Shown here: piece after piece, positions 4,125-28,005 of the stretch
Position numbering within the stretch: position 1 is the stretch's first letter
Layout: every line of letters starts with the position of its first letter
Source of the DNA: a virus
Virus record (IMG/VR): IMGVR_UViG_3300042691_036792
Coordinates: 1 to 32,212 of that record
Strand: one strand, 5' to 3'
Length of the DNA: 32,212 nt
Notes under the pieces: generated by a model
Database searches by the model: none
Told to the model about the DNA's origin: nothing
Seen by the model: only the letters and a program-made list of their open reading frames with translations
Made by a program: the position numbers and the translations under genes

Positions 4125-5378
4125 ATGGCATTTGACGATCTGAAGCCCCTCATCGAGGAGGGCAACAAGACCATTGCGGCCATTCGCGCCGAAGTGGAAG
4201 GCGTGAAGCAGGCCGATGTTCTGACCGAGCAGAAGATCGCCCGCATGGAAGCCGACCTGGCGGCAACGCTGAAGGCGAAGCAGGACGCCGATCTGGCGCT
4301 GAAGGCGCTGGAAAACCGCCTGGCCGAGATCGAGACGAAGGGCAACCGCCCCGGATCGACTGCGGCAACGCAGAAAGCCGCTGAAGAGCACAAGGCGGCC
4401 TTCATCGACTTCATGCGCAAGGGCAGCAACGGCGGGGCTATGGACCGGCTGTACGACCTGCAGCAGAAGGCCGCCGACGTGCGGACGACGGTCGGTGCGT
4501 CGGGCGGTTTTGCGCTGCCCAAGGAAATCGCAGATCAGGTCTACAAGATGATCCTTGACGTGTCGCCGATCCGGTCGATTGCGCGTGTCGTGACCACCGG
4601 GACGACCGACTACCACCAGGTCGTCAATCGCGGCGGTCTGGCAGCGGAATGGGTGGGCGAAGTCAGCGCGCGGACGCTGGCAACGGCCACTTCCGATTAT
4701 GGCGATGTTGCGCCTACCTTCGGCGAACTGTCGGCTGTGCCGGAAGCAACCCGGCATTCGATCAACGACCTGTTTTTCGATGTCGAAGCAGAACTGGTGC
4801 GGGATGGGGGGGAGCGCTTCGCAATCGCGGAAGGCATCGCGTTCATCTCGGGATCTGGGACCAACCAGCCGACCGGCTTTCTGACCGGCACGCCGGTTGT
4901 CACGGGCGATGCCGCGCGGGCGTTCGGCGTGCTGCAGTACTTTTTCACCGGTGCGGCCAGCGCATTGTCGGCAAACCCCTGGGACAACCTGAAAGACATG
5001 CTGTACGGGCTGAAAGCCGGTTATCGCCAGAATGCTTCGTGGGTGATGAACAGTCTTGTTCTGGCGGCCCATGCCAAGGTGAAAGACACGACCGGGCAAT
5101 ATCTGCTGACGCCGGCCGTGCGCGAAGGTGACCCCGACACCATGCTGGGCAAGCGCATTGTGGTTGCCGAGGACATGCCGAACGTGGGCGCGGGCGCTTT
5201 TCCGATTGCCTGCGGCGACTTTTCGCGGGGCTATCTGATCGCCGACATTCCCGGACTGTGGATGGTGCGCGACGAAATCACGAAAACGGGCTGGGTGCGG
5301 TTCCCGATGGCAAAGCGCGTCGGTGGCCGGGTTCTGGATTCGGCGGCAATCAAGCTGCTGCGGGTCGCCACGTCCTGA
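4125..5378 (+). CDS. Major capsid protein, HK97 fold
   Basis: This is the main shell subunit, 417 aa, preceded by a good ribosome site (AGAGGAG, 4110s). Residues 1-105 form a charged, coiled-coil delta domain that acts as scaffold and should be removed by the upstream protease. The mature part begins near the ADVRTTVGASGGFALP block and carries the conserved N-arm/E-loop region, including RGGLAAEWVGE. The C-terminal FRVPMAKR-like stretch (VRFPMAKRVGGRVLDSAAI) fits the P-domain end. A strong hairpin just downstream separates it from the connector genes. Confidence 0.95.
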   Translation: MAFDDLKPLIEEGNKTIAAIRAEVEGVKQADVLTEQKIARMEADLAATLKAKQDADLALKALENRLAEIETKGNRPGSTAATQKAAEEHKAAFIDFMRKGSNGGAMDRLYDLQQKAADVRTTVGASGGFALPKEIADQVYKMILDVSPIRSIARVVTTGTTDYHQVVNRGGLAAEWVGEVSARTLATATSDYGDVAPTFGELSAVPEATRHSINDLFFDVEAELVRDGGERFAIAEGIAFISGSGTNQPTGFLTGTPVVTGDAARAFGVLQYFFTGAASALSANPWDNLKDMLYGLKAGYRQNASWVMNSLVLAAHAKVKDTTGQYLLTPAVREGDPDTMLGKRIVVAEDMPNVGAGAFPIACGDFSRGYLIADIPGLWMVRDEITKTGWVRFPMAKRVGGRVLDSAAIKLLRVATS

Positions 5379-14957: not shown

Positions 14958-15245
14958 ATGGAAGCACAGCTTAAAGAGCTGGTGGCGATTTTCGGGCCCA
15001 CCGGCGGGGTGCTGCTGTGGCTGATGTTTCAGCAGTTCCGGGCGAAGAAAGAGCCTGCGGACCCGCTGCATGATCTGACCGAAGAGGTGCGGCGTGATGC
15101 GGCGGTGCTGCACCGCGAGTTGGCCGAGGCGCGCGACGAACAGCGGCGCGAGGTGGCCGAGCTGCGGCGCGAGCTGGCGGCGGTGCGGGAGGCCCTGGCC
15201 GGGATGCGGGCGACGGTGGAGTATCTGAAGGAGCGCGGGCGATGA
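14958..15245 (+). CDS. Single-TM coiled-coil protein of the lysis cassette
   Basis: The protein has 95 aa, with AAGGG upstream of the ATG. There is one hydrophobic segment at about residues 8-25 (LVAIFGPTGGVLLWLMF), followed by a long heptad-like charged helix from 40 to 93 (REL, EVAELRREL repeats). The layout suits a membrane-anchored lysis accessory such as an antiholin- or spanin-like protein. The stop overlaps the endolysin ATG. Function remains inferred. Confidence 0.6.
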   Translation: MEAQLKELVAIFGPTGGVLLWLMFQQFRAKKEPADPLHDLTEEVRRDAAVLHRELAEARDEQRREVAELRRELAAVREALAGMRATVEYLKERGR

Positions 15246-15964
15246 CGGTTGATCTGCTTCTGGACTTCATTGCTGATCACGAAAGCGAAGGCGCAGCGCG
15301 CCGATTGAAGATCAGTGCCTATGACGTGGTGTGGTCCGGCATTCGAAAAGAGCATCGGCCCAAAAGGCCGCTCACGACAATGACCATTGGCGAGGTGCTG
15401 GCGTGGCAGGACAGCATCGATCCGGTTTATCGCAGCGAGGCGGCGGGGCGGTATCAGATCCTTGAGGATACCCTGCGCGGCCTTTACGCCGAAGCCGGTC
15501 TGACGCTGAAAAGCCTGTTCGACAGGGCCGGGCAGGACGCGCTTGCGATTGCCCTTCTGAAACGTCGCGGTCTGGACAAATACCTGTCCGGCGCGCTGAC
15601 GGTGAAACAGTTCTGCAATGAGCTTGCCAAGGAATGGGCTTCGCTGCCCGTCGTCTCCGGCAAGGGCAAGGGCCGGTCCTATTATCACGGTGATGGGTTG
15701 AACGCGGCTTTGGTGGATGTTGCCCCGTTCCTTGCTGCTGTCGCAGCCGTAAAGCCTGAGCCGGTTGATGGCAGGAAAAGGCCGGTTTCCAAGACTCAAC
15801 CGGTTTTGGTGGCAGTGAGCGCGCCGCCACCGCCACCGCCTGCCGACGTGCCCCGGCCGCCCGCGCCGCCGCCCGATGTGGTGGGGCCCGATCCCGTTCC
15901 CGCGCCGCCTTCGGGCGGCTTTTTCATGCGCCTGTGGCGCGCCCTGTTTGGAGGATTCCGATGA
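15242..15964 (+). CDS. Endolysin, lambda R-like transglycosylase
   Basis: The protein has 240 aa. It degrades the peptidoglycan glycan strand at lysis. Residues 1-165 match the lambda R layout: LLDFIADHESEGA with candidate catalytic Glu14/16, YDVVWSGI, EAAGRYQIL at about 66-74, QDALAIALLKRRGL and EWASLPV. There is no signal peptide, so a holin is needed. A Pro-rich linker (185-215) and a short amphipathic end with MRLWRALFGGFR follow. Remarkably, a perfect intrinsic terminator is embedded in the 3' coding part (15904-15924). Confidence 0.88.
   Translation: MTVDLLLDFIADHESEGAARRLKISAYDVVWSGIRKEHRPKRPLTTMTIGEVLAWQDSIDPVYRSEAAGRYQILEDTLRGLYAEAGLTLKSLFDRAGQDALAIALLKRRGLDKYLSGALTVKQFCNELAKEWASLPVVSGKGKGRSYYHGDGLNAALVDVAPFLAAVAAVKPEPVDGRKRPVSKTQPVLVAVSAPPPPPPADVPRPPAPPPDVVGPDPVPAPPSGGFFMRLWRALFGGFR
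15904..15924 (+). terminator. Intrinsic terminator inside the endolysin gene
   Basis: There is a six-bp GC stem (GCCGCC/GGCGGC) with TTCG loop, followed directly by five T residues, about 40 bases before the endolysin stop. It is read in frame as PPSGGFF. It would reduce transcription into the holin, spanin and second tail module unless antitermination acts. Confidence 0.7.
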
Positions 15965-16173
15965 ACATCACATCTGCTGCCCGTCTGATTGCCTATGGCG
16001 TCGGGCTGGGTGCTTCGCTGCTGGCGCTGGCCGGGTATGCGACCTTTGATGCCGCAACCGGCACGCTGGACATTCTGCCGTTCAATATCTCGGTGGTGTC
16101 CACCTGGGCGATCACCGCCTTTACCAATGCGCTGGCAGCCGTGGCGCTGCTGCGCGGCTGGGGCAAGAAGTGA
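15961..16173 (+). CDS. Holin candidate, two-TM protein (70 aa)
   Basis: The ATG overlaps the endolysin stop (ATGA). Two hydrophobic segments lie at about residues 7-27 and 47-66, with a short basic C-terminus RGWGKK. The size and position between endolysin and spanin genes fit a class II-like holin that permeabilises the inner membrane. No family signature confirms it. An upstream in-frame start at 15934 lies inside the endolysin gene and is unlikely. Confidence 0.65.
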   Translation: MNITSAARLIAYGVGLGASLLALAGYATFDAATGTLDILPFNISVVSTWAITAFTNALAAVALLRGWGKK

Positions 16174-16403
16174 CCGGCCACCCTGTAGCGCGCATGCTGC
16201 TGGCGCTGTGGAAGCCGCTGGCGTGGCTGCTGGGGACGCTGGGGCTGTACGGCAAGGGCCGGGCGGATGCGGCCAGGGCGCGCGATCTGCGCGCGGCCCG
16301 CGAGTACCAGAAAACAATGGAGAAGGCCCATGACGCGCCTGTTCACACTGATGCTGCTGCTGCCCGTCGCCGGATGCGCGCCCGCAAGCCTGACCAGCGG
16401 TGA
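16170..16403 (+). CDS. Inner-membrane spanin (Rz-like)
   Basis: The protein has 77 aa, starting at GTG 16170, which overlaps the previous stop. A single N-terminal membrane anchor (about 8-27) is followed by a charged, helical periplasmic part (ARARDLRAAREYQKTMEK). That is the architecture of an inner spanin. The outer-membrane partner gene starts inside this gene in another frame. Together they fuse inner and outer membranes at lysis. It is short compared with lambda Rz (about 150 aa), as is usual in many compact spanin pairs. Confidence 0.75.
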   Translation: MTGHPVARMLLALWKPLAWLLGTLGLYGKGRADAARARDLRAAREYQKTMEKAHDAPVHTDAAAARRRMRARKPDQR

Positions 16404-16530
16404 CGCGATCTGCACGGCGACGCGGGGGGCGCGGGCCGTGCATGCGGCCGCCCTGGCGGAAACCCCGGATGACCGCGCGGCGGTCTCGGGGGCGAACCTG
16501 ATTGAAATCATCGACGCGGCCTGCCGCTGA
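16330..16530 (+). CDS. Outer-membrane spanin lipoprotein (Rz1-like)
   Basis: The protein has 66 aa. A short signal sequence ends in a lipobox LPVAGC, with lipidated Cys16, leaving a 51-residue mature lipoprotein. It begins inside the Rz-like gene and overlaps it by 74 bases in a different frame, which is diagnostic of Rz/Rz1 arrangements. It lacks the high Pro content of lambda Rz1. An ATG at 16267 in the same frame would remove the signal-peptide start and is unlikely. Confidence 0.78.
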   Translation: MTRLFTLMLLLPVAGCAPASLTSGDAICTATRGARAVHAAALAETPDDRAAVSGANLIEIIDAACR

Positions 16531-27946: not shown

Positions 27947-27969
27947 AAAAAGCCCGCCAGGTGGCGGGC
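27947..27969 (-). terminator. Intrinsic terminator after the 53-aa membrane gene
   Basis: There is a 7-bp GC stem (GCCCGCC/GGCGGGC, loop of four) followed, on the minus strand, by five T residues. It lies between the stop at 28006 and the leftward promoter, insulating the two transcription units. Confidence 0.82.
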
Positions 27970-28005
27970 CGGGAAAGACGCAGTGGTGTGACGACGGGGG
28001 TTGGA

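Follow-up and report, generated by a model that had tools for sequence, protein, structure and literature searches.

Why should a phage endolysin gene carry, within its own codons and ahead of the putative holin and spanin genes, what reads as a complete intrinsic terminator? The site lies at positions 15904-15924 (plus strand) of a 32,212-base virus record, the whole of which was analysed and is referred to here as the window. Its left arm (15904-15909), TTCG loop (15910-15913, with a C-G closing pair) and right arm (15914-15919) make a 6-bp all-GC stem, GCCGCC-TTCG-GGCGGC (15904-15919), and a T5 tract (15920-15924) follows. The stem is read as the codons (GC)G CCG CCT TCG GGC GGC and the tract as TTT TT(C), giving (A)PPSGGFF in the ORF at 15242-15964. 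An earlier note, made from the sequence, had described a GC stem, TTCG loop and T5 read as PPSGGFF near the endolysin C-terminus. Its sequence, coordinates and frame proved exact, and the terminator-like signal that it placed in the endolysin frame ahead of the putative holin and spanin is real. The GC-rich stem with a T run directly 3′ has the anatomy of an intrinsic terminator, and, as in the brfA class, the site is wholly within the frame and 5′ of the stop codon (15962-15964), which lies 37 nt 3′ of the end of the T tract.

The gene itself (15242-15964, plus strand) is homologous to lambda lysozyme (phrog_90, 1.2e-24; PDB 1am7, E 5e-4, and 3d3d, also about 5e-4); Pfam gave no match at E 1. 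It encodes a lambda-R-like catalytic domain (about residues 5-170), a Pro-rich linker and a hydrophobic C-terminal tail, GGFFMRLWRALFGGFR. Two runs of proline codons precede the hairpin on the same strand, PPPPPP (15824-15841), 62 nt 5′ of it, and PPAPPP (15857-15874), which ends 29 nt 5′ of it. Downstream, a GGAGG (15950-15954) inside the endolysin codons for FGG is, judging from the sequence, the likely ribosome binding site of the putative holin (15961-16173, 70 aa), whose start overlaps the endolysin stop (ATGA). This gene was named from position and hydrophobicity, and family searches returned no match that counts for it. A putative inner-membrane, Rz-like spanin (16170-16403), recognized by its position and N-terminal hydrophobic segment, likewise had no family match; nested in its gene is a putative outer-membrane spanin, an Rz1-like lipoprotein (16330-16530), and the longer ORF at 16267-16530 has a weak match to the Rz-like spanins of phrog_456 (E 0.025). 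All of these genes are on the plus strand, and the gene 3′ of the putative nested spanins encodes a fibre (Pfam Gp80, E 1e-15). Elsewhere in the window, the large terminase (557-2272) is 76-77% identical to those of Pan4, Mae-JY02 and Mel-JY03, which are labelled as cyanophages, unlike the named relatives of the endolysin, which are alphaproteobacterial; it may be worth checking the host labels.

The short stem (15904-15919) folds at -11.2 kcal/mol. An alternative, longer stem pairs 15868-15876 with 15911-15919 and is predicted in the window and in three of the relatives described below (L014, L015 and L016); it is absent in a fourth, L010, which folds into the short stem only. In the four records with a polyproline linker the longer stem is favoured when the upstream RNA, including the polyproline codons, is free, and the predicted probability of the short stem falls to 0 once at least 45 nt of upstream RNA are included. 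The right arm is predicted to be paired with a probability of about 1 in all five records. Because the longer stem uses the same 3′ arm adjoining the T5, it is in these models also compatible with termination, and an antiterminator role for the upstream pairing was rejected on the same ground. A second small perfect hairpin, GCGCC-TGT-GGCGC (15928-15940, plus strand), sits just 3′ of the T tract and is predicted when 15926-15975 is folded; one of its pairs is a G-U wobble in L016, owing to a C-to-T change. Rfam and tRNA searches returned no matches.

Could such a site arise by chance? Under a strict definition (a stem of six or more pairs, all of them GC, and then T5), 15904-15924 is the sole site on the plus strand of the window, and the minus strand also has a single one, at 27951-27970, which is intergenic. 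A loose consensus scan found 19 sites against 16.8 +/- 4.7 expected from shuffles, so a general excess of terminators in the window was rejected. Unusual overall folding was rejected as well, since the 46-nt region has a minimum free energy ordinary for its composition (z -0.47). A stem with T5 has P = 0.054 when the peptide and the codon usage of the window are given, and the exact hairpin codons have a probability of 0.0008 given the peptide. When the codons of 28 plus-strand ORFs (a gene list of our own choosing) were shuffled synonymously 500 times, at least one strict site appeared in a fraction of 0.022. The strict site is real, and it is moderately unlikely by chance, with P about 0.02-0.05 under synonymous-codon models. 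Third codon positions are variable at 0 of 8 sites in the hairpin against 7 of 27 outside it, a comparison of four related records that is underpowered (Fisher p 0.13). Sequence comparison makes a stronger case for the hairpin than do these chance statistics.

At least 120 viral stretches contain the identical 21-mer, usually as an intergenic phage terminator. A ribosome-binding-like site and a start codon follow within 55 nt 3′ at 64 of 122 sites, against 522 of 4000 random positions (13%). Extended by its 3′ flank to 28 nt, the sequence is an exact match to an intergenic terminator in one Rhodobacterales genome, located 23 nt 3′ of the stop codon of a 489-codon gene, and the sense ORFs over that hairpin have at most 25 codons. 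With up to three mismatches, the 28-mer was detected in 10 of 390 genomes of the order to which the Roseivivax locus L003 belongs, and a reversed-pattern control in none of the 390. Sites of this type are infrequent (4 of 100 genomes in one family, including the centre, which was chosen for having a match). The phage has a related terminator of its own: the minus-strand intergenic site at 27951-27970, which follows a small gene, has 14 nt, CTTTTTCATGCGCC, in common with the endolysin site, and within the window TTTTTCATG was found at these two places only. What the two sites share 3′ of the T tract may be characteristic of certain terminators in Rhodobacterales. The DNA at the endolysin site looks like a host-type intergenic terminator, 3′ flank included, that is now translated.

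Translated copies were also sought among the other 21-mer sites. Long sense frames over the 122 sites made up 15 rows; 12 long frames were extracted and 10 of them, from 9 loci, were scanned against PHROGs (L050 and L069 were left out). Among the frames scanned, the sole convincing copy is in L040, where a gene at 135-1460 encodes a P22-type portal protein (Pfam E 1.4e-113) with the C-terminus PPSGGFFMPDPGAPAA. The same 21-nt terminator lies at 1409-1429 of that locus, in the same frame as in the endolysin, with 49 nt from hairpin start to stop codon. Judged by these matches, the L040 portal gene contains a second, unrelated translated terminator. L053 was rejected as a candidate, its family match lying 3′ of the hairpin.

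An endolysin search found 13 viral loci, four of which (L010, L014, L015 and L016) have the tail; a degenerate-codon search for GGFFxRLWR returned 17 stretches, and the endolysin tails among them were those same four. With the window, this makes five viral records that have the tail, and they do not differ at any of the 21 nt of hairpin and T5. L014, L015 and L016 show synteny with the window and match its endolysin in the tail only. The catalytic domain of their endolysins is another one, chitinase-like (the Glyco_hydro_19 matches for L014 and L015 are weak, at E about 0.002, and miss the curated cut-off), and homology to all three resumes at 15825-15843 of the window, after the unrelated catalytic domain. 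Homology to L015 and L016 stops again at 15963, where another downstream gene starts. L010, from a distant phage, aligns over 62 bp around the hairpin at 92% identity, and the directly adjoining DNA does not align; an Ala-to-Glu change there preserves the stem and adds an A-U pair, for a total of 7 bp. PPAPPP is at equal spacing from the hairpin in four of the five records, and L010 has no polyproline stretch. Three of the tail records have another catalytic domain than the window, and three have another downstream gene. Because the tail occurs across the five records with two kinds of catalytic domain and ahead of three kinds of downstream gene, the alignments place the hairpin in an exchangeable C-terminal tail module.

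Two of the loci call for separate remarks. In L010, a strong terminator at 4579-4593 lies just 5′ of the lysis cassette, the start of which is therefore flanked by this terminator and by the in-frame one in the endolysin; the upstream site had been considered as a second in-frame terminator and was rejected when it proved to be intergenic. L002 is a contig whose title describes it as a Novosphingobium MAG; its 4923 bp match the window with 99.9% identity, and it counts as non-independent. It is probably the same phage or a near twin that was binned with a bacterial genome.

The endolysins of L003 to L009, L011 and L012 end without the hairpin (the scan sought at least five pairs and T4; L013, a tail lysozyme, was left out). 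Except for L009, whose protein ends tailless, these relatives combine a linker with a C-terminal segment that is hydrophobic and often amphipathic. The two features occur together in 8 of the 9 endolysins aligned with that of the window, 7 of the 8 being hairpin-less, and PPSGGFF is not preserved in the hairpin-less relatives. These alignments divide the earlier suggestion that the Pro-rich tail was made by fusing a former terminator region to the enzyme. For the GGFF...GG end the idea is partly borne out by the 28-nt Rhodobacterales match, the 14 nt shared with the phage's own terminator and the mobility of the tail; it leaves the Pro-rich linker, common as this is in relatives without a hairpin, unexplained. 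Among 26 further loci with L015-related endolysins (a subset of the 79 other loci returned, and including L180, which was discounted as being in the wrong frame), none has a terminator in the endolysin 3′ end, and two have one 400-600 nt downstream of the endolysin. The endolysins of L006 and L007 are similar and so, by the first codons read, is the gene downstream; because both loci do without the hairpin, the comparison indicates that the hairpin is dispensable as well as lineage-specific. The late regions of Pan4, Mae-JY02 and Mel-JY03 had no terminator with a stem of at least 5 and T4 in the stretches read. A prophage search of host genomes for GGFFxRLWRA gave 0 of 394, apart from the near-identical MAG contig L002. 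GenBank phages gave no match by DNA and weak terminase matches only by the 22-residue tail, and no plasmids matched.

The reading that we prefer, with a probability of about 0.42, is that a genuine terminator was captured in a translated, exchangeable tail, where it may serve as an attenuator ahead of holin and spanin, leaky and masked by ribosomes. Jointly with this, and at the same estimate, the last ~20 endolysin codons would hold three messages: a protein tail, a host-type intrinsic terminator and the holin ribosome binding site. A ribosome close behind RNA polymerase would cover the hairpin, allowing read-through and the production of holin and spanin. If endolysin translation lagged, for example in the polyproline stretch, the hairpin would form and transcription would stop at about 15920-15926, with loss of the holin and spanin RNA and an endolysin message left without a stop codon. 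Since the stopped transcripts would have no stop codon, every termination event would come at the expense of endolysin in addition to holin and spanin; the product would be short of its final ~13 residues and subject to ribosome rescue. We infer termination in vivo, ribosome masking of the hairpin and an effect on lysis timing. The earlier note had proposed that the signal could set a lower level of holin and spanin mRNA than of endolysin mRNA, or else might be a target of antitermination. Such a difference in mRNA level is possible, but the terminated RNAs would be ones without the endolysin stop codon. Because the site is 5′ of that codon and a terminated RNA loses endolysin too, termination offers no simple route to an excess of endolysin over holin, and the dosage idea needs changing.

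Published measurements bear on this mechanism. In E. coli, ribosomes mask terminators near or inside genes, the masking ends beyond about 27 nt, and a terminator with its U tract 38 bp 5′ of the stop codon retained 40% efficiency (PMC4824070); earlier work cited there indicates that a tightly coupled ribosome can fully abolish such a terminator. The 29 nt between PPP and the hairpin compare with the limit of about 27 nt in that text (PMC4824070). In a translated reporter with PPPPPP 5′ of an intrinsic terminator, downstream expression was strongly reduced without EF-P (PMC5021804). It is because of the masking, the PPPPPP-reporter data and the local spacing of PPPPPP/PPAPPP that we think a leaky attenuator the most likely role. 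In its favour we would count the match to a common phage terminator, the Rhodobacterales match, the identity in 5 of 5 records, the L010 stem and the published geometry. Against it we count the chance P of 0.02-0.05, the third-position p of 0.13, the hairpin-less L006 and L007, the L010 tail without polyproline and the prospect of full ribosome masking. A more specific claim, which we think quite unlikely, is that slowing at PPPPPP/PPAPPP, 29-80 nt 5′, unmasks the terminator as a switch governed by translation speed, with holin and spanin made only if endolysin is translated briskly. If true, lysis would sense the translation state of the cell (EF-P, proline supply) via the endolysin coding sequence.

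A relic silenced by translation would account for the same facts nearly as well. Here the endolysin frame ran through an intergenic terminator and its ribosome binding site to the holin start, translation has silenced the terminator since, and the signal persists as part of a recent tail exchanged as a block between phages. The 28-nt match to a host intergenic terminator, the 14-nt flank in common with the phage's own terminator at 27951-27970, the order of hairpin, T5, ribosome binding site and ATG seen at intergenic sites, and the sharing of the tail as a block with sharp edges all suit this account, which we regard as a substantial possibility, held tentatively. Its difficulty is that all 5 records preserve the stem, which in L010 is even stronger, though single synonymous changes would break it; the five records may be too close to tell. 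The sharp edges also suit an account in which 15838-15963 is a shared join for swaps of endolysin and holin modules and the hairpin has no transcriptional role, the DNA identity serving recombination or resulting from it. Homology to L014, L015 and L016 that resumes at 15825-15843 past an unrelated catalytic domain, the L015/L016 boundary at 15963 and the 62 bp shared at 92% with L010 are as such a hinge would predict. It is nevertheless unlikely, as it leaves unexplained why the shared core should be a full terminator with a host-type 3′ flank.

That same flank weighs against coincidence at the peptide level, the idea that selection acted on the protein tail only and that PPSGGFF codons readily form such a stem. 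The stem and T5 do arise in 5.4% of codon draws given the peptide, and hydrophobic C-terminal tails are usual among related endolysins. An exact 28-nt identity to an intergenic terminator, specific codons with a probability of 0.0008 given the peptide and the loss of PPSGGFF in hairpin-less relatives nonetheless make it very unlikely. We consider least probable, and indeed highly improbable, a switch between isoforms, in which the stop-less message yields a rescued endolysin without the hydrophobic tail and the tailed and untailed forms act differently. The anatomy is like that of brfA, where a terminator in the coding region removes 9 codons (PMC6881298), and the loss here would be 12-13 codons and the stop. 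Rescue by tmRNA, however, tags its product for destruction, and a stable short form would be unexpected barring another rescue route.

If the leaky attenuator is functional, a signal embedded in the endolysin codons would link the timing of lysis to how well the enzyme is translated, and in-frame terminators, known in a ribosome rescue gene and in a nucleotide-synthesis leader, would have a further setting in phage lysis cassettes. The locus would also provide a natural test of polyproline pausing coupled to termination. If non-functional, it remains a clear example of terminator sequence that became protein-coding.

In-frame terminators are a known kind of signal, as in brfA and pyrBI, and some arfA genes also have one; the location in a phage endolysin is new within the literature that we searched. 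That search, with subscription journals mostly outside its scope, found no in-frame terminator in a phage endolysin. The ordinary intergenic phage terminators with the 21-mer have an identical stem, loop and T5, often followed by a ribosome binding site and ATG; they usually lie between genes, whereas the endolysin copy is translated. An anatomical parallel is brfA of Bacillus subtilis, in which an intrinsic terminator likewise lies inside the 3′ end of the frame and the RNA ends 5′ of the stop (PMC6881298). Unlike the phage gene, brfA is a ribosome rescue factor with strong termination that regulates brfA itself; in the phage, the frame is that of an endolysin followed by a putative holin and spanin, and the terminator is predicted. 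The pyrBI leader and tR2 placed in coding regions offer a parallel in mechanism, in that a translating ribosome near the polymerase blocks the hairpin, and in construct W38p the gap from U tract to stop is 38 bp (PMC4824070), compared with 37 nt at the endolysin site. The pyrBI system acts via a short leader peptide, whereas the phage frame is a full enzyme gene. The EF-P-sensitive polyproline reporter resembles the locus in having PPPPPP codons 5′ of an intrinsic terminator in a translated frame (PMC5021804); that construct was engineered, whereas the arrangement in the phages is natural and absent in one of the five.
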